A DNA stretch of 64,000 nt, taken from the IMG/VR virus record IMGVR_UViG_3300043446_005562, positions 186,001 through 250,000 of that record. One strand, 5' to 3'. The stretch's first letter is position 1; every line of letters starts with the position of its first letter. The DNA comes from a virus. A program made the translations under genes and the position numbers. Of the stretch, positions 22,735 to 60,859 are shown one piece after another. Under the pieces are notes generated by a model. It ran no database searches and was not told the DNA's origin. It saw nothing but the letters and a program-made list of their open reading frames with translations.

Positions 22735-22974
22735 CTATTTAATGAATTTATAGGTTATTGAATCGCCGACTTGAGTGTAACTACTGCAAGGCACTGTGTC
22801 TCCATTTGAGAGCACCGCGTTCCAACTGGGATTAATTTCGTCGTGTACTGAAATAGGTCTTTTCTTGTAAACCTCAATTACCTTGAATCTCTCAATGGCA
22901 ACGCATTCAGGTTCTTTTATCTCGCATGCTGCAAGTCCAATTGCGCAAACGATCAATAGTGTCAAGTTTTTCAT
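22735..22974 (-). CDS. Small lipoprotein
   Basis: 79 residues. The N-terminal signal LIVCAIGLAAC is a lipobox with lipidation at C17, so the mature protein should be anchored in a membrane facing the periplasm. The mature part has two further Cys and is beta-rich. Start overlaps the previous gene by 4 bases (ATGA). Possible o-spanin, exclusion lipoprotein or unknown. Confidence 0.65.
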   Translation of the reverse strand: MKNLTLLIVCAIGLAACEIKEPECVAIERFKVIEVYKKRPISVHDEINPSWNAVLSNGDTVPCSSYTQVGDSITYKFIK

Positions 22975-50109: not shown

Positions 50110-50298
50110 TTACTTTACTGTTGGAGTGCAGCATGCAGCAGTATCAGCTTTTGTTGCAGCTGAGTCTACTACGGTCGAGTCAACTTTAACTAGAGTTGAG
50201 TCGGTCGCATTGGCTGTTGCTTCGGTGGTTCCTGTGGTGCAGCTAACTGCGAACATTGTCGCGATAGCGATAGCAAAGATTGCTTTTTTCATAGTCAT
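50110..50298 (-). CDS. Small Thr/Ala-rich lipoprotein
   Basis: 62 residues (ATG at 50292 is an alternative start). Signal KKAIFAIAIATMFAVSC with lipidated Cys20; the mature part is Thr/Ala/Asp-rich with a final CC. A one-gene transcript with its own TATAAT promoter and strong terminator, as expected of an abundant early product such as an exclusion lipoprotein. Function unproven. Confidence 0.65.
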   Translation of the reverse strand: MTMKKAIFAIAIATMFAVSCTTGTTEATANATDSTLVKVDSTVVDSAATKADTAACCTPTVK

Positions 50299-50798: not shown

Positions 50799-50806
50799 TA
50801 TAAATA
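50799..50806 (+). promoter_or_regulatory. T4-like late promoter of the export/lysis cassette
   Basis: Exact TATAAATA (TTTATAAATAAAC), 20 bases before the GH19 endolysin ATG at 50827; the only such exact match ahead of the ten following co-directional genes, although GATAAATAT occurs at 59502. Confidence 0.65.
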
Positions 50807-50826
50807 AACAAAAAACTTTTTAGTCG

Positions 50827-51657
50827 ATGGCACTTCTAAAAAACGGATCCTCTGGCCCAGAGGTTTCTAAGCTCCAGTCATTCCTGGGCATCCCAGCGGA
50901 CGGCCAATTTGGTCCAGGTACCGAAGCAAAGGTAAAGGAATGGCAGGCTGCACACGGGTTAAAGGCGGACGGTATTGTTGGAGAGGACACTCTTGCAAAA
51001 ATGCTTGGAACACCGGCCCCAGCGGCACAATCTCAAACGACGATTCCAGCGTCAAGTTTCAAACTGGAAAAATTAAAAGGGCATGTGCCCGATGCAGTCC
51101 TGGCTCAGATTCCTGACACGGCTGCAAAATTCGGAATTACTAATGTTTTAAGATTAGCTCATTTCTTGGCTCAATGCGGTCACGAATCCGGCGGATTTAA
51201 GGCGGTTAGTGAGAACCTAAATTACTCAGCGGACGGTCTAAAAAAGATCTTTCCAAAGTACTTTCCCGGCAATCTAAACGAGTCCTATGCCAGACAACCT
51301 GAAAAAATCGCTAACCGCGTCTATTCTTCAAGAATGGGTAACGGCGACGAGACCTCAGGCGATGGCTTTAAGTTTAGGGGCCGCGGCTACATTCAATTGA
51401 CTGGAAAGTCTAACTATTCAGCATTTGATAAGTTCGTGGACGACGATATCATCGGTAATCCAGATCTAGTATCCACAAAGTATCCATTGGCATCAGCTGC
51501 TTTCTTTTTTAACAATAACGGTCTATGGACGGTTTGCGATAAAGGAGCTGACGATGCAACGGTTACTGCAGTTACCAAACGAGTTAACGGTGGAACCATT
51601 GGATTAGAGGATCGTCTAAAGCACTTTAAGGAGTATTATTCTCTACTAACTACTTAA
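50827..51657 (+). CDS. GH19 chitinase-like endolysin with peptidoglycan-binding domain
   Basis: 276 residues. N-terminal peptidoglycan-binding repeat (~1-60: SGPEVSKLQSFLGI, DGQFGPGTEAKVKEWQ). GH19 domain from ~80: HFLAQCGHESGGF with catalytic Glu120, then FRGRGYIQLTGKSNY. No signal peptide, so it needs a holin or other release; a holin-like gene lies at 53963. First gene of the plus-strand cassette under an exact late motif. Confidence 0.93.
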   Translation: MALLKNGSSGPEVSKLQSFLGIPADGQFGPGTEAKVKEWQAAHGLKADGIVGEDTLAKMLGTPAPAAQSQTTIPASSFKLEKLKGHVPDAVLAQIPDTAAKFGITNVLRLAHFLAQCGHESGGFKAVSENLNYSADGLKKIFPKYFPGNLNESYARQPEKIANRVYSSRMGNGDETSGDGFKFRGRGYIQLTGKSNYSAFDKFVDDDIIGNPDLVSTKYPLASAAFFFNNNGLWTVCDKGADDATVTAVTKRVNGGTIGLEDRLKHFKEYYSLLTT

Positions 51658-51671
51658 AATAATTTTAAAAA

Positions 51672-53600
51672 ATGAAGAATTTCTTTGTCGGATTAATAAT
51701 TGTACTTGCCTCTCTGGTTGGGTCCAACCCAGCCTTTGCTCAATCCGGTCCACCCGCTCCAGGCTGGGGGATCTATGCTCTAATCGACACCACCTATCAA
51801 GTTGGAACCTATTCGCAGGGTGTATCCCATGCAAAGATCACTCTTAAGAACAGCGTTACCACAAAATACACAGGTGTTCAGTTTAGACTCTTTTACGATA
51901 AAAACGCGTTTGCCTCTGCCTCAGTTGCACTAATTGGTTCAGCAACGAACCTTGACCTGCAAGCGGTTGACAATAACGCAAACGGTTATGTTACCATTTC
52001 TTTGGTTTACACGGGTAACAGCGCAACCTACACAATACCGGACGGCGAAAGATTTGACGTGACGTTCACTCACGTTGCGCCCAATGCCTTTTTTGGCTTA
52101 GCTTCAATCTCTAACCTAACCTGGTCCGGTGCACAATCATACAGCCAATACGCATCATCTCAACCTGGTCTAGATACCGTGCTTACTCTACACAGCTACA
52201 ACGGGCAATGGTTAAGGGATACCCTAAAATTCCACGGCACATTCACCAACGTTACCGGCTCACCCGCTAAAAACCTAACACTTTCTCTTGAAAAGAAGGT
52301 AAAGGTTGGAGGTACCTGGTCCCAGCACGCTGCCTATACTACGAATCTACAGGGTAAATTTTCAATCGCTGAATTGATTGACACAACCTATTACGATGTT
52401 CGCTTGGCAATCAAGGGCGATACGATGGGAGTTGGTAATGTAATCTCAACCGCTGATGCTCAACTAATTAATCAGTGGATTCTAGGCAACGGTACTCCAC
52501 AGGCCTGGGATTTTTATACTGGAGATATTAACGGCTCAAACGGTTTGACCATCACCGATGCCTATGGAGTTTTTGGTAGAATCTCTGGCCGATTCAACTC
52601 TTGGCCCAATGGCGTAAAGGATCTTAAGTTCTTTACTCAAGCCGAGTACGCTGCAATCACAGGCTCGCCAAATACAAACTACACCGCAACCTATACCGGC
52701 ACAACCAACTTCTACTACAATATTTTACCAGGTCAGCCAGATTCGGTTAATTATTATGTGTTGGTACCGGGCGATGCAAACGGTACAGGCTATCACATGG
52801 CTCGTTTGACACCTATCACGATCCTGCCAACGCCCAATCCCAATTATCCATCTCAATTGGAAAACATAATTGACATGACCGCTGAATACGACTTTCCAAC
52901 CGATCATGTTGAGATCAACATGCCTTCAATTAAGGTTACAGCCGGCAATCTGGTTGAAATTCCAGTAACCGTTAAAACCTTTGGTAAGCAGATCTCATCT
53001 CTACAATTGGGAATGTTATACGATTCAAGCGCTCTTGACTTTAAAGAATTAAGCAATTCGGACAAATCAATGCTGTGGCTCTCTTCAATCAATCCAATGG
53101 ACGGTATGGTTGAATGGTCGGGTTACGATCCATCTGCAAACAAGGACTACATGATTCCGGACGGCTACAATATCTTTACTCTTAAATTCATAGCTAAACA
53201 GCCACAATCAAACTGGTCTCAATCACCACTATGGACAACTCGTAAATTTACGGGCGATGCTAATTCCAAGGACATGAGCGTGACACCAACTAATGGAATC
53301 TTGATTGTTGCAAAGATGGCCGCTCCAATCGGTCCAAACGAGGCCGAGGAGTCAATGATCGTCTATCCTAATCCAACGACCGGCGATTTCAGCGTTAACT
53401 TCACAGTTAAGAACAGCGGTCACGTTACCCTCTACATTCTAAATAACCGCGGTATAGTTGAACACCTAATCTTAGACAAGGACATGCCAGAAGGAAACTA
53501 CGTTTACTCTTCAAACATTTCTAATCTAGCTTCAGGTCTTTACATTGCAACTCTACAGCAAAAAGGAGAGGTGAAGACCTCAAAAATTATTAAAGAATAA
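51672..53600 (+). CDS. Large exported protein with cohesin/dockerin-like parts and T9SS sorting domain
   Basis: 642 residues. Signal peptide 1-23 (cleavage A23|Q24). Beta domain ~30-165 of cohesin type; dockerin-like repeats ~240-300 (ISTADAQLINQWIL, DINGSNGLTITDAY); a second cohesin-like domain ~400-510 (VTAGNLVEIPVTVKTF). The C-terminal ~80 residues (ESMIVYPNPTTGDFSV, then SNLASGLYIATL and KTSKIIKE) are a T9SS type A sorting domain. The protein should be exported and attached to or shed from the host surface. Role in the phage cycle unknown. Confidence 0.85.
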   Translation: MKNFFVGLIIVLASLVGSNPAFAQSGPPAPGWGIYALIDTTYQVGTYSQGVSHAKITLKNSVTTKYTGVQFRLFYDKNAFASASVALIGSATNLDLQAVDNNANGYVTISLVYTGNSATYTIPDGERFDVTFTHVAPNAFFGLASISNLTWSGAQSYSQYASSQPGLDTVLTLHSYNGQWLRDTLKFHGTFTNVTGSPAKNLTLSLEKKVKVGGTWSQHAAYTTNLQGKFSIAELIDTTYYDVRLAIKGDTMGVGNVISTADAQLINQWILGNGTPQAWDFYTGDINGSNGLTITDAYGVFGRISGRFNSWPNGVKDLKFFTQAEYAAITGSPNTNYTATYTGTTNFYYNILPGQPDSVNYYVLVPGDANGTGYHMARLTPITILPTPNPNYPSQLENIIDMTAEYDFPTDHVEINMPSIKVTAGNLVEIPVTVKTFGKQISSLQLGMLYDSSALDFKELSNSDKSMLWLSSINPMDGMVEWSGYDPSANKDYMIPDGYNIFTLKFIAKQPQSNWSQSPLWTTRKFTGDANSKDMSVTPTNGILIVAKMAAPIGPNEAEESMIVYPNPTTGDFSVNFTVKNSGHVTLYILNNRGIVEHLILDKDMPEGNYVYSSNISNLASGLYIATLQQKGEVKTSKIIKE

Positions 53601-53616
53601 AAAAACCAATAAAACC

Positions 53617-53946
53617 ATGTCAGAAGAAACAAACGTACAGGATCAAAATGACGGCACCTGGTCAGGTCTCAAGAAAACCTTGATCGCCACTTTAACTACC
53701 GTAATTACGGGAGGCGGTGTCTGGTTGGGAACCTTCCTTTATGGGGGGCATGAAGAACCCAAGGCCGAGCCAAAAACTGAACAGGCAGCACCAGCTCCTG
53801 CACCAGTTATTGTTAATGTTCAGCAAACTCAAGAGAACACTCAACAACAAAAAGCGGGTGGAACAACAACAATCATCAAGGAAAAGATTGTTGAGAAGCC
53901 AGCAAAGAAAGAAAAAAAGAGCGAGACTGAAGACTCTCCTTGGTAA
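53617..53946 (+). CDS. Membrane protein with Pro/Ala/Gln-rich tail
   Basis: 109 residues. One hydrophobic helix (~19-42, TLIATLTTVITGGGVWLGTF) and a disordered, finally basic tail. Gene context between exported protein and holin-like gene suggests an envelope role; possibly a TonB-like or spanin-like linker across the periplasm. Confidence 0.5.
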   Translation: MSEETNVQDQNDGTWSGLKKTLIATLTTVITGGGVWLGTFLYGGHEEPKAEPKTEQAAPAPAPVIVNVQQTQENTQQQKAGGTTTIIKEKIVEKPAKKEKKSETEDSPW

Positions 53947-53962
53947 AAATACGTAATTTAAA

Positions 53963-54319
53963 ATGTCACTGAAAAAACTCTTAATTGGCGAAAACGCCTA
54001 CGTTAAGGTGGAAGACAAGAATCGCTTCTACTATATGTTACAACAAATGCAGGCCAATCGTTGGAAGATTACAGCGATCGTGTTGGGCCTGTTCTTCTTT
54101 ATTATTTTAGGTATCAATTCAGCCGTTTTCTTTGGAGTTACAATCCAAGAATCATGGAAGGAAATGTTACTAATTTTATTGGGAGCGTTTGTTGGTAATC
54201 TAAACAAGGTTGTTGATTACTGGTTTAATTCAGAAGATCGCGACAAGATGCTGATTCAAAAGGTAGATGAAGAGGACGGAACTTCGCTATCAAACGTAAC
54301 AACAAATAGCCCAGAATAA
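53963..54319 (+). CDS. Holin-like membrane protein
   Basis: 118 residues. Two transmembrane helices (~32-56 and ~62-80: ITAIVLGLFFFIILGINSAV; LLILLGAFVGNLNKVVDYW) with both ends charged and likely cytoplasmic. The G-A-F-V-G-x-x-x-x-V-x-x-Y-x-F sequence after the second helix is common in phage holin-type proteins. Located four genes' worth of sequence after the endolysin in the same transcript. Confidence 0.6.
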   Translation: MSLKKLLIGENAYVKVEDKNRFYYMLQQMQANRWKITAIVLGLFFFIILGINSAVFFGVTIQESWKEMLLILLGAFVGNLNKVVDYWFNSEDRDKMLIQKVDEEDGTSLSNVTTNSPE

Positions 54320-54320
54320 C

Positions 54321-55040
54321 ATGAAAAAGCTAGCAATACTCTTTGCGCTTTTCCTAAATTCAGCCATGTGTGTTGCTCAGATTGGTTCAATCAAGTCTGA
54401 GCAATACCAAGCTGACTTTGAAAAGAAAATGTCGCTTGACTCTGTGCCCGAATACAAGGACACAATCAAGATTCCCGTGCAGATTCTAAAAATTGGAATC
54501 AGCTCGGATCTTTACGAAATGTATCCAGAATTAAAGGACAAGCGTGTTGGACTTGGTGTTACCAATATTGTGTTGGAATACCTAGAGTACACCAACCGAT
54601 TCGTCTTTACTGAGGATAAGTTGGAGATTAAGGAGCGCATGATTAATCAGTTCAAAGCATCGGACAAGGGATTCACCGAGAACAAAATGGACGGTCGTGG
54701 TAAGATCAAACTTGCAAAATACTTTGTCTATATTGAAGTTTACGATTTTTCGGTGTCAGACGATGAGGTTGTGAAGGTGAACGGCCAATCGCAAACAACC
54801 CAAATTACGAGACTTGGCTTACAGGTTAAATTCGTTGATGCTGAGACCGGCGAAATCATAATGGGCTCAGGACTGGGCGAGGCCAAGACAGTAAAAACGG
54901 TTTCAATCTTGGAAGGTATTGACGATACTGAAATTAAATTTAATCAATCCCATATTGGTATAACCACCAAAAAAGCTTTGGAAACCGCTGCTGCTCGAAT
55001 AGTTAATCGCATGATAAAAAAGGGAATTTTTAAATCTTAA
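54321..55040 (+). CDS. CsgG-like outer-membrane secretion protein
   Basis: 239 residues. Signal peptide 1-19 (MCVAQ, cleavage before Gln20). The mature part has the CsgG family order: a N-terminal strand region, GLGVTNIVLEYLEYTNRF, FSVSDDEVV and VKFVDAETGEIIMGS, then a terminal helix (ALETAAARIVNRMI). In curli, CsgG forms a nonameric channel for amyloid export. The lipidated Cys seen in E. coli is not clear here. Stop and next start overlap by 1 base. Unusual in a phage. Confidence 0.65.
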   Translation: MKKLAILFALFLNSAMCVAQIGSIKSEQYQADFEKKMSLDSVPEYKDTIKIPVQILKIGISSDLYEMYPELKDKRVGLGVTNIVLEYLEYTNRFVFTEDKLEIKERMINQFKASDKGFTENKMDGRGKIKLAKYFVYIEVYDFSVSDDEVVKVNGQSQTTQITRLGLQVKFVDAETGEIIMGSGLGEAKTVKTVSILEGIDDTEIKFNQSHIGITTKKALETAAARIVNRMIKKGIFKS

Positions 55041-56623
55041 TGCATGTCAAGAAAATCATATTCATACTATTTTTAATTATCTCAAATGTTGCAATCGGTC
55101 AAATCAATTATTCATACATTGACCCTTGTACTGGGATAAAGAAAACAATTCAGGTGCCGTCTAACGGCGTGACCGTTACCTATTACGGTCAAATACACAC
55201 ATTTCAACCGACCGATTTTTACAGCGGAGTTTTTGAGAATTGGGCAAATGGCGTTTACGCATCATTCGGCTCCAATAATCCATGCGCAAGCATTGTCGGC
55301 ATGCCAACCGGTCTAACCGTTGCTCAGAGCAGCGCGTTGAATTTTCTAGGAATAATTAATTCGCTCGATGCGGTCAAGGATTTAGCGGGAGGAGGAACGA
55401 ATTTTCTTTCTGGTACAATTGAGAGTACTAAAAAATCTGAAAAAAAGGAAAAGAAAGATGATAATACTAACTCTACTTCTGTTAATGCTGGTGCCGCTAG
55501 CGGTCAAACTGGTAATTCGGCAACATCGCCGCAATCTGGGAATAAAGGCGAAGCTCAATCGGCTGGTGGATCTCAAGGCCAATCTGGAGGCGAGGCTCAA
55601 TCAAGCGGTGGGAGCCAACCGGCTAGCCAAAAGCCTGATCAAACGGGCGGATCTGGATCGGGCCAAGCTGGCGGAGGAAGCGGATCAAACGGCAGCGGCT
55701 CACCACAAAATCCAGGATCGGAAACCTCAGGTGGATCAGCCCAGGGATCAACAACCGGATCAGGTGGACAAACAACTGGCTCGAGTTCAAATAATAGTTC
55801 AACTTCTCAAAATGGGTCTTCCTCTGGAGGAGGCTCACAGGGAGGCGGACAAAATGATGCAACAAAAAAAGTAACCACAACACCCGCTGGGGAATCCAAA
55901 ACGGATCAGCCATCTGGCTCGGGTAAAACCGATCTGGTTGGATCGTCAGTTAATAATGTGCAGCGAGTTGATGCAAAAAACGGCAATCGACCCAATATCA
56001 TAGCCTCAAGCGATTTTGTTGGATTTAATTTTAAAAATTCAGATGTCTCATACGGCGGTAAATTTACCGGAGGCTATACCTCAGCCAGATGGGACGGCGC
56101 TCGAGCTCATGGACTACTCATTGACTACACGACCGCACTAAAGGGTCCAAACATTAGCGGCTTCTATGCATTCATTAAGCCCAAAAGAATTGACCTTATC
56201 TCAACCACGCTAACTCTTGGTCTTGACATAAAAAAATCAATTTACGGAACGATTGCGCTGGGTCAAATGTGGGATATCAACAAGAAGAAAAACGTTAAAG
56301 CTGTTTATCTTTTAACTGGCTCTTACGGTAGTGTCTATGATCAAGCATTCATTGGTACGGCAGCAATTGCGGGCGGCATGTGGGATCTTAAACTCGGTAA
56401 AAGAATTGATGCTAAAATAATGGGTCTCTATGTTTACGCACCGTATGTTAGCTATTACAACGATATTTTGCTAAAGTCGCCTCACGTTGTTTTACCAATT
56501 CTTGGGTGCAATATTAAAATCACAAATAAATTCAAGATAAACATTAACGGTGGTGGCGCTTGGGCTCTAAAAGAAAACACCCTAAATTACACAGTAATGA
56601 TGGGTACCAGATTATTGTTATGA
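55040..56623 (+). CDS. Exported protein with Gly/Ser/Gln linker and beta-rich C-terminal domain
   Basis: 527 residues. Signal peptide 1-20 (IG|Q). A small N-terminal domain (~21-120), then ~160 residues of Gly/Ser/Gln/Asn-rich repeats (~140-300), then a beta-rich domain of ~200 residues with alternating strands (GGKFTGGYTSARWDG, LISTTLTLGLDIKKSIYGT) that looks like an outer-membrane barrel and ends in MMGTRLLL. The linker may be extended at the cell surface. No family assigned. Confidence 0.6.
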   Translation: MHVKKIIFILFLIISNVAIGQINYSYIDPCTGIKKTIQVPSNGVTVTYYGQIHTFQPTDFYSGVFENWANGVYASFGSNNPCASIVGMPTGLTVAQSSALNFLGIINSLDAVKDLAGGGTNFLSGTIESTKKSEKKEKKDDNTNSTSVNAGAASGQTGNSATSPQSGNKGEAQSAGGSQGQSGGEAQSSGGSQPASQKPDQTGGSGSGQAGGGSGSNGSGSPQNPGSETSGGSAQGSTTGSGGQTTGSSSNNSSTSQNGSSSGGGSQGGGQNDATKKVTTTPAGESKTDQPSGSGKTDLVGSSVNNVQRVDAKNGNRPNIIASSDFVGFNFKNSDVSYGGKFTGGYTSARWDGARAHGLLIDYTTALKGPNISGFYAFIKPKRIDLISTTLTLGLDIKKSIYGTIALGQMWDINKKKNVKAVYLLTGSYGSVYDQAFIGTAAIAGGMWDLKLGKRIDAKIMGLYVYAPYVSYYNDILLKSPHVVLPILGCNIKITNKFKININGGGAWALKENTLNYTVMMGTRLLL

Positions 56624-57804
56624 GAAAACTTATATTACTGCTAGTTACGGCGATTGCGCTTTCAATTACACTCACGGCTCAGCCTTTTACCTATTCAGGT
56701 TACGTTTACGGCGCAAACGGCCAGGGTCTTCAAAACATTCCGGTCAAACTGTTTGGCAAACGAACTGACCCATACGAGATTAGCTTTCCAACCTACAGCC
56801 CAGCTGGTGCATTTAATTCCGGCACGGTGATTCCATCTTCCGACGACGCGACTCATGGACCCTTTAATATAGGCTTCACCTTTAGCTTCTTTGGTAATAA
56901 CTACACCCAATTCTATGTTGGGTCAAACGGCTGGATTGGTTTTTCTTCTGCTCAAACAACAGGTTATACTGCTCAATACATTCCAAATGCAGGTTCGCCA
57001 AAGAACGTTATCATGGCGGACTGGGAAGACCTCTATCCAGGTTCAGCCAATATCTACTACACAACGGTTGGCACTTCGCCCAATCGTAAATTAATAGTTT
57101 CATTCAATGCAGTGCCGCATTACGGCTGTCGTACTAATCTGCACACATTTCAATTTGTGCTGTACGAATCAAGCAATGTGATTGATGTCTATTATCAGGA
57201 CAAGCCCCTGTGCTCAGGCAATAACTCAACCGCAGGCTTGGTCAATATTGATAATACGAATGTCGTACCGGTTGGCGGCAAGAATGCCTCTGCCTGGTCG
57301 GCGACCAATTACGCAGTTCGATACACGCCAGCCGTGCCGGAAACTTCTTTTTCGCTAAAGGGTACCTATTCAACCAGTGCAACCGGTCAATACACAATAA
57401 ATCCAAATCTGGATGCACAGTCTTATCAATTTGAAATTCGACTAGAATCATTATCGGTTGCATTACCTACACCGACTGATGCGCAATATCCAACCGAGAT
57501 AAGTCTCTATAATATTACGCCAACCTCCAAGCTCTATTACACGATGGACGTCAACGGCGATGGCCGATTCACGGTCACGGATTCATACAATATCTATGCT
57601 CGCATAAATAACAGACCAGGTTTTTGGATCTCTCCAATTGCAGACTATCGAATATTCACACCAGCCCAGTGGACCACAATTAATTCAGGCACCACTGACA
57701 TGAGGGGTACGATTCCCGGTGTTCAGTCAATGATCATCTTCACTCCAACAAACGGTGGTTCAACCAATTTTTATCTGTTGAGAACTGGCATAAAAACACA
57801 ATAA
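56620..57804 (+). CDS. Exported nidogen-like protein with dockerin-type loop
   Basis: 394 residues from ATG 56620, chosen because it opens a signal peptide (MRKLILLLVTAIALSITLTA, then Q) and overlaps the previous stop as ATGA. Residues ~60-215 (GFTFSFFGNNYTQFYVGSNG, VIMADWEDL) match an extracellular nidogen-like domain; ~300-325 (YTMDVNGDGRFTVTDSYNIY) is a dockerin-like calcium loop. No T9SS tail. Could pair with the cohesin-like domains of the protein at 51672. Confidence 0.65.
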   Translation: MRKLILLLVTAIALSITLTAQPFTYSGYVYGANGQGLQNIPVKLFGKRTDPYEISFPTYSPAGAFNSGTVIPSSDDATHGPFNIGFTFSFFGNNYTQFYVGSNGWIGFSSAQTTGYTAQYIPNAGSPKNVIMADWEDLYPGSANIYYTTVGTSPNRKLIVSFNAVPHYGCRTNLHTFQFVLYESSNVIDVYYQDKPLCSGNNSTAGLVNIDNTNVVPVGGKNASAWSATNYAVRYTPAVPETSFSLKGTYSTSATGQYTINPNLDAQSYQFEIRLESLSVALPTPTDAQYPTEISLYNITPTSKLYYTMDVNGDGRFTVTDSYNIYARINNRPGFWISPIADYRIFTPAQWTTINSGTTDMRGTIPGVQSMIIFTPTNGGSTNFYLLRTGIKTQ

Positions 57805-57809
57805 CTAAC

Positions 57810-58271
57810 ATGAAAAAACTAATCTTTACCCTATTAATTTTTATCTCAACCCAAGTCACGGCCTTTTCCCAAACTGATCGATGTTTTAGCATTGATACTG
57901 TGTACTCAACTGCAAAGTTTAGAGAATTGGGCAAACGCGATATTAGGTTCGGTGTCAAGCAGATGACCGAGGAATTGATCTCTGAGAAGTTCTGTATTAA
58001 GCCAGGGTCGTCAAGTGTCAAGGTTGAAATATTCTATTTTGGCTTGCCGAGAAAGGAACTTAGGCTGCTTGGAGTTGGACGAGAAGAGGCAATCACGCAG
58101 GTCGGAATCAGGCTGCACATTGATGGTAAAGCATACGAGGGCTATGGCGAATCGGAAACTGAGATTAGAACAATAATGTTGGAGGTGGTGGAAGAGTCTG
58201 TACCTTTTTCCAAAATGACTCTGTCCAATTCCATTAAAAAAGCCCTGGTTCAATGCGTTTCGCAATTATAG
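57810..58271 (+). CDS. Small exported protein (CsgE-like position)
   Basis: 153 residues. Signal peptide 1-20 (AFS|Q). Mature part alpha/beta with VEIFYFGLPRKELRL and two cysteines. Its position after the CsgG-like gene would fit a periplasmic accessory, but no CsgE/CsgF sequence signature is visible. Overlaps the next gene by 19 bases. Confidence 0.5.
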   Translation: MKKLIFTLLIFISTQVTAFSQTDRCFSIDTVYSTAKFRELGKRDIRFGVKQMTEELISEKFCIKPGSSSVKVEIFYFGLPRKELRLLGVGREEAITQVGIRLHIDGKAYEGYGESETEIRTIMLEVVEESVPFSKMTLSNSIKKALVQCVSQL

Positions 58272-58714
58272 CTCTAATCGTTTGGCTGGCAGCTGGCTCA
58301 GCACAGGCTCAAATTCAAATACCCGATGTGGGAGACGGCTGGCGACCAAAGGTCGACTCGGCGATTGCTGTGATTAAGGCCCATGATCCAGTCGCTCACA
58401 AGCGCCTGCTTGAAAACTGTAAATCGATTCAATTCATTATCGCGGGAGAGTCAACCACTCAACCGCCCAGCGTAATTGCAATATCGGTAAACGACATGCG
58501 ATTAAACTCAATCAACAACATTGCTGCCATTCTGGTACACGAGTCGTATCATTTGTACATTGCAAATCAGGGCATAAAGCTTGATCCAAACGTTGAGGAG
58601 TATCAGGCCTACTCAATAGAATATGAATTTTTATTTAAAATTCCTGACCTTGAGGATTGGCTATTCGAGAATGCGCTCAACCGCATGCTCTATTATAAAT
58701 CCAAGATAAAATGA
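58253..58714 (+). CDS. Exported HExxH metalloprotease-like protein
   Basis: 153 residues. Signal peptide MRFAIIALIVWLAAGSAQA before Gln20. AAILVHESYHLYIA contains HExxH (HESYH), with EEYQAYSIEYE 20 residues on as a possible third ligand. Similar to small peptidase-like proteins; may cut a periplasmic or envelope target. Confidence 0.6.
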   Translation: MRFAIIALIVWLAAGSAQAQIQIPDVGDGWRPKVDSAIAVIKAHDPVAHKRLLENCKSIQFIIAGESTTQPPSVIAISVNDMRLNSINNIAAILVHESYHLYIANQGIKLDPNVEEYQAYSIEYEFLFKIPDLEDWLFENALNRMLYYKSKIK

Positions 58715-59496
58715 AAACCTTAATTACATTGGCTTTAATGCTAGCATCAATTGCAGCAGTCGGTCAGACAAGTCCACCTCCACCGCCCAAGGCGCCAGCT
58801 GAGGATTTTGGCAATACTCAAAATAATATTATGGGCGCGCAGGCCAGATCTTTTGGCGGCGGCTCAATAATTAGACCCAACCCAGTGCTGACCTCAGCCG
58901 ATTTTAGTTTCATACAGAATCCAACCTTTGAATCGGGTTGGCGCTATGGTACTGGCTTGGGATACAGTAATGTAAATTTGGGTAAGGGTTATGGTGTCAA
59001 CGTTATTTTGACATTTGACTTGACCCAACAAACCTATTCGGGTTTCTATCGCAATGGAGACTGGTACTTTCATCTCAACTTTGGAAAAATGGGTCTTGTC
59101 AGAAACATTGGCGCAAGCGCAACCAGAGTTTGGGAATTCGATAAAACAACTGTCGGTGTACAGCTTGGAGTATCCGATGTTGAGAGCATGGATTTAAAAA
59201 ATCAGTATTACGTTGCGGTGCCCTATCTTGTTTTTCTAGCGGATCGAGAGATTAGATTAAGCAAAAGACTTGAATGGAAGCCTGAGATTTTCATAACTAC
59301 TTGTTCGCCATACTATGACATTGGTAAAAAATTTAGCAGCACATCCACAACATTCAACGCGGTCGTTGGCAACAACATCTCAATCGCAGTTCACAAGAAA
59401 TTCAGGCTAAATGTTAATTGGCGTGCAAATATGAACACAACTCCAAACTGGGGTGTCATGCACAACATTCTAGTCGGAACAACTTTAAAATTTTAA
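58711..59496 (+). CDS. Outer-membrane beta-barrel-like protein
   Basis: 261 residues. Signal peptide 1-18 (AVG|Q), a Pro-rich linker (TSPPPPPKAPAED), then amphipathic strands (GWRYGTGLGYSNVNLGKGYG, FRLNVNWRANMN) ending in LVGTTLKF, the terminal aromatic expected of barrel proteins. 4-base overlap with the gene before. Role unknown. Confidence 0.6.
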   Translation: MKTLITLALMLASIAAVGQTSPPPPPKAPAEDFGNTQNNIMGAQARSFGGGSIIRPNPVLTSADFSFIQNPTFESGWRYGTGLGYSNVNLGKGYGVNVILTFDLTQQTYSGFYRNGDWYFHLNFGKMGLVRNIGASATRVWEFDKTTVGVQLGVSDVESMDLKNQYYVAVPYLVFLADREIRLSKRLEWKPEIFITTCSPYYDIGKKFSSTSTTFNAVVGNNISIAVHKKFRLNVNWRANMNTTPNWGVMHNILVGTTLKF

Positions 59497-59501
59497 ACCC
59501 A

Positions 59502-59510
59502 GATAAATAT
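59502..59510 (+). promoter_or_regulatory. Late-promoter-like motif inside the cassette
   Basis: GATAAATAT, 18 bases before the ATG at 59529; may give separate late expression of the last two genes. Confidence 0.4.
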
Positions 59511-59528
59511 TATTAAAAAATAAAGAAT

Positions 59529-60119
59529 ATGAATTACACAAGAGAACAAATTGAAAAGGCGGTCAAGGCCAAGGGTTATGCATGGTTTGAGGGCGCAAAG
59601 GACTATGATGTCAATATTGTTGGTATTAGAAATTCTAGCACCGGCCAAAAGGTCACTAACGTGTTTGATGATCTGTTGACCGTGTCCTATAAATTAAACG
59701 GTGAATGGCACTTTCATGCCTGGGCCGCAACAACCGATCCCGGTAAAAAGGGGGTTATGGAGTATCATAATGCAGCTGGCGTTGCTCGACTGGTTGAGGG
59801 TCAATATCGTGGATCGCATGCAATCGGTCTACACCAGGGTAAGTACGAAGCCCTAAAGCAGGCTAAAAACGTCAAGGTGTATCGCGATGCAAATCGTGAT
59901 CTAACTTACGATGAAACCAAAATTCAGGAAGGAATCTTTGGAATCAACATTCACAAAGCTGGAGCGGACTCAACCTATGTTGAAAACTGGTCAGAAGGTT
60001 GTCAAGTATTTAAAAAGTCAGCGGACTTTGATCAGTTCTTGGCCATCTGTAAAAAATCACAAGCAATTCACGGTAATTCCTTTACCTATACGCTAATTGA
60101 ATCTGCGGACATTGTATGA
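59529..60119 (+). CDS. Conserved phage protein with L,D-transpeptidase-like HxxG..SxGCQ motif
   Basis: 196 residues, no signal peptide. GINIHKAG then NWSEGCQVF near residues 140-165 matches the pattern of YkuD-type catalytic sites (His, then S-x-G-C). The remainder (TVSYKLNGEWHFHAWAATTD, GQYRGSHAIGLHQGKYEAL) is conserved in phage proteins of unknown role. Perhaps a murein-active enzyme complementing the GH19 endolysin. Only gene of the group, with the endolysin and the two membrane proteins, that lacks a signal peptide. Confidence 0.6.
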   Translation: MNYTREQIEKAVKAKGYAWFEGAKDYDVNIVGIRNSSTGQKVTNVFDDLLTVSYKLNGEWHFHAWAATTDPGKKGVMEYHNAAGVARLVEGQYRGSHAIGLHQGKYEALKQAKNVKVYRDANRDLTYDETKIQEGIFGINIHKAGADSTYVENWSEGCQVFKKSADFDQFLAICKKSQAIHGNSFTYTLIESADIV

Positions 60120-60859
60120 GATTAATATTTCTATTACTACTAATTATTCCTATTGAAGCCTTTAGTCAAACTAAGGGCTTCATTTCAATAGGTGGCGATT
60201 GGAATTCAGGTAACTTTCAGTCGATTGGCCTGACACTGCGGTCGGAGATTAAAAAGGACAGTGGCAACTATCAATGGGCGATTGCGCCCAACTTTAGATG
60301 GAGCGAACAGTCAAAGGTTGGTGGAGGAGACCTAAATCTCTATGAGAACGAGCTCTACTTGACAGGTAATTTGACACGATCATTGGTCAAGAGCTGGAAG
60401 GTGATAGGCTTTTCCGAAAACGAAAAATCCTATTTAAGAAAAATAGACTTGCGATCAGCTGCTGGTTTTGGAATTGGGGTTGATCTACTCAATCTAAAAG
60501 GAGTTCGGCTCTCAGTGTCTGAACTTATTCTACCTGAATACTATTGGTCAAGCCTGAACACTGAACTAAATAACTTTACGGTTAGGGGCTCGACCCGATT
60601 CAAGCTTGAGATCAGCGGTAAGATTTTAAAGTTCTCATCAGTCAATCTAATTCAACCGGCCATCTATTCAAGTCGACAGGTTAGCTTTGCGGATAATCTA
60701 AACATTCGCAGTAATTCTTCAATCTCTACCAAGTTAAAGGATCGCTATGAGGTTGGTGTGTTACATACCTTAACCTATCAGGGATATCCCTACTACATCA
60801 ATAAGACGATTGTGCCAATGCAACAGGGCGCATCCATCTTTGTTAAGTGTACTTTTTAA
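60116..60859 (+). CDS. Outer-membrane beta-barrel protein (DUF481-like)
   Basis: 247 residues. Signal peptide 1-17 (AFS|Q), then repeating amphipathic strands (FISIGGDWNSGNFQSIGLTL, NYQWAIAPNFRWSEQ) resembling DUF481-type barrels, ending FVKCTF. ATGA overlap with the previous gene. Ends 1 base from the convergent thioesterase gene. Confidence 0.65.
   Translation: MRLIFLLLLIIPIEAFSQTKGFISIGGDWNSGNFQSIGLTLRSEIKKDSGNYQWAIAPNFRWSEQSKVGGGDLNLYENELYLTGNLTRSLVKSWKVIGFSENEKSYLRKIDLRSAAGFGIGVDLLNLKGVRLSVSELILPEYYWSSLNTELNNFTVRGSTRFKLEISGKILKFSSVNLIQPAIYSSRQVSFADNLNIRSNSSISTKLKDRYEVGVLHTLTYQGYPYYINKTIVPMQQGASIFVKCTF

Follow-up and report, generated by a model that had tools for sequence, protein, structure and literature searches.

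Little is understood of the means by which Bacteroidota phages open or remodel the outer membrane of their hosts, and what phage-encoded CsgG does has been under debate since 2020. Phage CsgGF is present in pelagiphages (PMC7029224), and both of the kinds of role weighed below have been assigned to phage CsgGF modules in the literature, in each case without experiment (PMC7029224, PMC9004378, PMC9599517). FapF, the Pseudomonas amyloid exporter, is arranged in the order helix, linker, and 12-stranded barrel (PMC5557850). Phage-encoded cargo of the T9SS has been reported once, in Cryophage, with type A sorting tails on variable proteins that include a PA14 domain (PMC7468147). Cellulosome scaffolds and holin-endolysin-spanin cassettes are further points of comparison.

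The locus described here shares something with each of these, and bears on outer-membrane opening and remodeling in Bacteroidota phages. In common with CsgG/curli type VIII secretion, including the csgGF genes of pelagiphages and Melnitz, it has an exported protein of the CsgG superfamily, encoded in a phage operon alongside small partners and of debated role, but it is without a Pfam CsgG match, a lipobox, or CsgE, CsgF, and curlin; hairpin 1 is shorter and charged, and a second CsgG-like paralogue, a separate barrel, and a cohesin/dockerin scaffold are added. The barrel protein, like FapF, is predicted to have a periplasmic helical part, a disordered linker, and a 12-stranded outer-membrane barrel, but the two are about 10% identical, the linker is about 200 aa rather than the 42 aa of FapF, many other 12-strand barrels are among the structural matches, and Pfam scans of the cassette matched no Fap family. 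Type A sorting tails occur as in Cryophage, but here there is one cargo in a fixed multigene module, and its tail can be swapped for a lipoprotein. Cohesin and X-dockerin modules lie on separate exported proteins as in cellulosome scaffolds, but with lectin, PA14, or nidogen-like heads and no enzymes attached. Finally, endolysin and holin-like genes are adjacent in many loci and there is a putative single-TM periplasmic tether, as in a holin-endolysin-spanin cassette, but there is no recognizable spanin and most of the proteins are predicted to be at the surface or in the outer membrane. We found no paper in the open-license literature describing this combination of parts.

Organization of the locus

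The window, a stretch of 64,000 nucleotides, covers positions 186001-250000 of a virus record 252,618 bp long, in which family scans find a portal protein of T4 type and a polymerase of family B; there are also 19 tRNA genes. Among isolates, the Flavobacterium phages immuto come closest in the cassette, and immuto gp017 shares 60% identity with the CsgG-like protein; the host is therefore probably a member of the Bacteroidota, in line with the host proposed in the first-pass annotation. The cassette was described there as eleven co-directional, tightly packed genes; the orientation and packing hold, and we count 12 open reading frames, all on the plus strand, between 50827 and 60859. Gene coordinates in the window, by which the proteins are named below, are as follows:

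50799-50814, plus strand: TATAAATAAACAAAAA box, candidate T4-type late promoter (sequence)
50827-51657, plus strand: endolysin, PG_binding_1 and GH19 (family scans; in the CsgG directon in 18/78 distinct loci)
51672-53600, plus strand: CARGO, with a cohesin-like N-terminal part, CnaB/X-dockerin, cohesin, and a T9SS C-terminal sorting domain
53617-53946, plus strand: MP1, one TM helix (alignment)
53963-54319, plus strand: MP2, two-TM holin-like membrane protein (sequence)
54321-55040, plus strand: CsgG-like exported protein (AlphaFold model, PDB matches, profile comparison)
55040-56623, plus strand: BB, predicted linker-tethered 12-stranded outer-membrane barrel (model, alignment, Foldseek)
56620-57804, plus strand: head protein, variable recognition domain and X-dockerin-like C-terminus (family scans, reading by eye)
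57810-58271, plus strand: smaller second CsgG-superfamily exported protein (profile comparison)
58253-58714, plus strand: exported HExxH (HESYH) protein, putative zinc peptidase (sequence; 18/78 loci)
58711-59496, plus strand: second exported barrel-like protein, accessory (clusters with BB by sequence)
59529-60119, plus strand: endolysin-like protein with an S-x-G-C motif and no signal peptide, accessory (9/78 loci)
60116-60859, plus strand: DUF481 outer-membrane barrel, accessory (family scan)

The intergenic distances are, in order, 14, 16, 16, 1, -1, -4, 5, -19, -4, 32, and -4 bp, so that neighbors do overlap or nearly abut, as had been stated, with gaps spanning -19 to +32 bp. N-terminal Sec-type signal peptides without another long hydrophobic stretch are present in 8 of the 12 proteins (51672, 54321, 55040, 56620, 57810, 58253, 58711, and 60116), in agreement with the count of eight given earlier.

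The TATAAATAA box lies 20 nt 5' of the first cassette gene, and at 50799 it includes TATAAATA, the core of late promoters in T4. What had been described earlier as an exact late motif is the TATAAATAAACAAAAA box; the exact 15-mer ATAAATAAACAAAAA is found at exactly two places in the 252,618-bp record and at none in the reversed control. Across loci, an ATAAATA core falls in the -36 to -13 zone of 9/62 genes that are first in a module, compared with 15/647 other first genes (P=8e-5). Late expression of the module is likely, by analogy, because the box carries this core sequence.

Conservation and distribution of the module

In IMG/VR, a scan with the CsgG-like protein as query returned 79 loci, and a second, from a distant member, added further locus ids, some of them repeats of the same contigs; once near-copies are removed, there are 78 distinct phage loci. 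Partners were counted as genes in the same-strand run (directon) that holds the CsgG-like gene. CARGO is present in 70/78, MP1 in 68/78, a 57810 homologue in 59/78, and the barrel in 60/78, adjacent to the CsgG-like gene in 52 loci, where the two lie a median of 1 bp apart; MP2 (37/78), f8 (28/78; a two-TM protein described below), and the endolysin family (18/78) are less frequent. Most module gene pairs overlap or are separated by 1 to 8 bp. The CsgG-like protein is the most conserved of the module, and the loci sharing the core are diverse, with its identity falling to about 53% and flanking genes that differ.

The conserved core spans 51672-58271, and its order recurs in the 78 distinct loci, so the cassette is not a chance assembly. 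The gene-order search in relatives thus confirms that the genes are conserved together, and the view of all eleven genes as one system holds for this core but not for 58711, 59529, and 60116, which come and go. The core is a unit, and lysis genes are frequent, not obligatory, neighbors.

Relatives of the CsgG-like family were found in 2 of 84,980 GTDB genomes, a count to be read with the limited sensitivity of the pattern pre-filter, and one of these two matches is a 254-kb contig with phage gene order. Among 295 Bacteroidia genomes, one has a relative, in the same genome as in the GTDB scan. Within the limits of that pre-filter the family is practically viral, and recent capture from a host is not supported, given its near-absence from cellular genomes. 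The module is widespread in environmental phages; the only isolated phages carrying it are the immuto phages, and Flavobacterium phage immuto, on strain LMO8, is its cultured representative.

The CsgG-like pair and the adjacent barrel

An AlphaFold model of the 54321 protein, built from a 26-row alignment, is of moderate confidence (pLDDT 68, pTM 0.59). Its nine best PDB matches are all Escherichia coli CsgG, including 4uv2 (E from 1.3e-7, probability 1.00); TM-scores to solved folds are 0.26 to 0.44, with CsgG at about 0.42. The next structural matches, HpaA, GNA1162, FlgT, and LptE, belong to the wider superfamily, and the best viral match is a phage CsgG. An unrelated fold, the outcome that would have told against the first-pass annotation, was therefore not what the structure prediction returned. 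By sequence, the 54321 profile matches a small CsgG set (E 2.6e-6), with nothing from unrelated module families as controls. When the comparison is limited to two bona fide Bacteroidia CsgG sequences, no signal is left, and the profile matches nothing among the sequences of solved structures even at E 10. Pfam CsgG (PF03783) has no match in the cassette or record, with search controls matching in four genomes. As modeled, the relation to CsgG is a fold-level link, because the two bona fide Bacteroidia sequences give no signal.

The 57810 family is predicted to be a second member of the CsgG superfamily, homologous to the 54321 family: profile comparison of the two gives a probability of 97.6 (E 3e-12; controls under 28%), and a search of the whole record with the 57810 profile recovers the 54321 gene (E 7e-6).

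Several features weaken the earlier tentative suggestion that the 54321 protein is itself a channel. Its signal peptide ends ...AMCVAQ with no lipobox Cys, and relatives end AQ without a conserved Cys. Hairpin 1 is about nine residues shorter than in E. coli and has acidic residues at 147-149 in 100% of sequences; hairpin 2 is similar in length to that of E. coli, in a part of the model where confidence is low. We set aside the CsgG-like protein as a pore on account of the invariant charges in hairpin 1, and, CsgG-like though its predicted fold is, we would not class it among curli channels.

A better candidate for a pore is the 12-stranded barrel protein encoded by the next gene. The model of the 55040 protein has a small N-terminal beta domain, a helix at 81-116, a disordered linker of 196 aa, and a confident 12-stranded barrel, and the alignment shows an invariant cysteine pair (DPC...PC) in the N-terminal domain. 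Foldseek returns 12-strand barrels, many FapF chains among them, and the modeled resemblance to FapF appears to be one of layout.

CARGO and its surface anchor

The 51672 protein matches Cohesin (1.8e-11) and Por_Secre_tail (7.5e-10), both over the curated cut-off, which for the latter is 27 bits compared with a score of 39.4; its annotation as T9SS cargo is upheld by this match, and its tail is the only T9SS tail in the whole record. CARGO is thus a predicted T9SS cargo, with the appearance of a dockerin/cohesin scaffold carrying a T9SS tail. Cohesin is detected in 9/15 CARGO members, and the CARGO profile matches solved cohesins and T9SS-tail structures, and weakly X-dockerin structures. Dockerin_1 is matched at E<0.01 by one member only in the CARGO set and one only in the head set. 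In immuto, CARGO comes as two proteins, one the dockerin half and the other the cohesin-plus-tail half, each with a signal peptide, as would suit parts that join outside the cell; the products of immuto gp013-gp015 comprise a lectin and these CARGO halves, gp014 and gp015. CARGO is also found as two open reading frames, broken at the same dockerin-cohesin junction, in loci L040 (7014-8906), L044, and L045, where the second lacks a signal peptide; a frameshift would explain this, as would a genuine split.

Of 76 distinct CARGO loci, the T9SS tail is present in 48, none of which has a lipoprotein adjacent, and absent from 28. A lipoprotein is adjacent by a strict pattern in 24 of these 28 and on reading in three more (L058, L071, and L074); the remaining locus, L065, has a lipoprotein homologue after an inserted open reading frame. 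Tail and lipoprotein occur together in none of the 76. The anchor lipoproteins are about 120 aa, are encoded after CARGO, and are found in loci L053-L110. Their family aligns with that of the T9SS tail at a probability of 95 (E 4.7e-8), with negative controls, and the anchor lipoprotein is thus predicted to have a fold like the T9SS C-terminal domain. On the CsgG-like tree there are at least two, probably three, switches between tail and lipoprotein. Because the tail and a lipoprotein of the same fold are mutually exclusive and repeatedly swapped, surface anchoring of CARGO appears to be kept under selection by two routes, and this repeated exchange offers a new handle on the evolution of surface anchoring. 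The insertion in L065 is a 199-aa open reading frame, read by eye as a GIY-YIG homing endonuclease. In L093 and L085, large cohesin-ended or PA14 surface proteins follow the barrel gene, each then followed by its own second lipoprotein of the CARGO-anchor type.

The head position

The gene after the barrel encodes a protein whose head domain, in ten members, is a C-type lectin in six and PA14 in one (Pfam). The 56620 protein in the window, and that of locus L004, look nidogen-like by eye; the nidogen feature previously assigned to 56620 comes from reading the sequence and is not supported by Pfam, in which the protein has no nidogen match at E<0.01. The head is the least conserved core-associated gene, with a median identity of 35% compared with 80% for the CsgG-like protein, as would be expected of a recognition module. 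Its C-terminal part resembles the dockerin region of CARGO, and we would guess that the head dockerin binds the CARGO cohesin within the module; we put this as a guess because the dockerin domains are weak in Pfam. An adhesive head is not universal, since in one clade a lipase and no lectin gene follows the barrel.

The class-3 lipase after the barrel is without a signal peptide (L055, L057, L062, L068, L070, and L074), and its gene is directly before the endolysin gene in L055 and L068. By analogy with LysB, which attacks outer-membrane lipids in mycobacteriophages, it might act on the same target.

Membrane proteins, lysis genes, and accessory genes

MP1 has one TM helix followed by a tail of about 65 residues that runs from charged to Pro/Asn/Gln-rich, and its C-terminal residue is Trp in 98/98 homologues; in Flavobacterium phage immuto 2-6A, MP1 is gp016. 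The charge pattern, Lys-Lys before the TM helix and acidic residues after it, suggests that the tail is periplasmic, where it could reach the outer membrane if extended; MP1 is a candidate inner-membrane tether. In other loci MP2 is replaced or accompanied, in the same place, by the unrelated two-TM protein f8, which in several loci immediately precedes the endolysin gene and in others the CsgG-like gene. Neither MP2 nor f8 matched a named family in the libraries scanned.

The annotation of 50827 as an endolysin is borne out by PG_binding_1 (1e-14) and GH19 (1.6e-7), and among 42 distinct loci with full flanks, 20 have a member of this family no more than 10 kb away, 14 of these on the same strand. 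For the 59529 protein, the earlier reading as L,D-transpeptidase-like comes only from its S-x-G-C motif, and the family matches are phrog_3000 (5e-39) and the endolysin family phrog_33083 (6e-16). A further beta-barrel is corroborated, 60116 belonging to DUF481, an outer-membrane barrel family. An exported DNA/RNA nuclease of the NUC1 type (f18) is encoded inside the module in 13/78 loci (L001:9935-10513 and 12 others), and could degrade incoming or released DNA.

Possible roles of the module

From the gene set, its conservation, the folds and domains, the restriction to viruses, and the exclusivity of tail and lipoprotein, all of which were computed, we infer the assembly of the complex, its topology, timing, and purpose. 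The reading we favor, which we hold to be plausible while falling short of probable, is of a late phage envelope module, often linked to lysis, that reshapes the outside of its infected Bacteroidota host by export and surface display. MP1 and MP2 (or f8) would sit in the inner membrane, with the extended MP1 tail and its invariant final Trp spanning the periplasm; the two CsgG-like proteins would assemble into a ring in the periplasm or outer membrane, with the linker-tethered 12-stranded barrel as a conduit or anchor in the outer membrane. CARGO would be exported and fixed outside through the host T9SS and its C-terminal domain, or in other phages through the lipoprotein of the same fold, and head proteins (lectin, PA14, or nidogen-like) would dock by their dockerins on the CARGO cohesin to make an adhesive coat, for which the likely uses are superinfection exclusion or the holding of sibling cells or progeny. 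Fold, domain, and conservation evidence supports the putative export or surface-remodeling role first suggested for the cassette.

In many loci the module has endolysin and holin-like genes next to it, an arrangement that suits lysis no less than display. The module could therefore be a breach device that replaces or assists spanins and opens the envelope at lysis together with the endolysin, lipase, and nuclease, with MP2 or f8 as the holin, MP1 as the inner-membrane half of a link, and the CsgG-like protein and barrel as its outer-membrane half. We regard this as somewhat unlikely, and keep it alive because endolysin, lipase, exported nuclease, and holin-like genes are nearby: the endolysin frequencies and f8 positions given above, the two loci in which the lipase gene directly precedes that of the endolysin, the nuclease in 13 loci, and a second endolysin-like gene in 9 all point this way. 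A lysis role has been proposed for phage CsgG (PMC9004378), and a 2025 survey gives Bacteroidetes phages unimolecular spanins only (PMC12596118). Nonetheless, the evidence for outer-membrane breach, also raised in the first-pass annotation, comes from the neighborhood; this endolysin family is absent nearby in more than half of the full loci, and a weak Rz-like spanin candidate lies elsewhere in the record. Surface display is judged likelier than pure breach because lectin and PA14 heads, cohesins and dockerins, and T9SS anchoring lack an obvious use in rupture and are left unexplained by it.

The CsgG-like fold and FapF-like barrel might instead indicate a true curli-type (T8SS) amyloid secretion system, as claimed for pelagiphages, which we consider very unlikely: there is no match to CsgG, CsgE, CsgF, or curlin in the cassette (E<=1) and none to CsgG or CsgF in the record, and with CsgE, CsgF, curlin, and the lipobox all lacking, we rejected it. 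An uptake channel, in which the barrel and CsgG-like ring let nutrients in during infection while surface proteins catch glycans, has also been raised for pelagiphages; lectin heads, a barrel, and an inner-membrane tether superficially like TonB speak for it, but no ExbB/D, SusD, or transporter partner was recognized, the promoter is of late type and the neighborhood one of lysis genes, and we think this very unlikely indeed. Hardly credible is that these are unrelated late accessory genes under a common promoter; 58253, 58711, 59529, and 60116 do vary between loci, but the core co-occurs in diverse loci whose flanks differ.

A bolder form of the favored surface-display reading, which we put forward as doubtful, is of a virus-specific envelope-spanning machine with no recent cellular ancestor, in which a doubled CsgG-type ring and tethered barrel plant a self-assembling dockerin/cohesin lectin coat; if true, the phage would control what its dying host sticks to. 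The module splits into separable parts, and the lysis, adhesion, and superinfection models are thus distinguishable.

Spanin candidates and small lipoproteins

The cassette genes encode no lipoprotein and neither an i-spanin/o-spanin pair nor a unimolecular spanin, and searching with heuristics for lipobox and TM helices turned up spanin candidates that are all weak and lie outside the cassette. A 274-aa protein encoded at 56121-56945 of the record (minus strand) has an N-terminal TM helix and a coiled coil and is weakly Rz-like (E 0.1), and is a possible inner-membrane spanin far from the cassette. Two tiny lipoproteins are encoded on the minus strand of the window, one of 62 aa at 50110-50298 and one of 79 aa at 22735-22974, the latter weakly resembling the Cor superinfection exclusion family (E 0.06).
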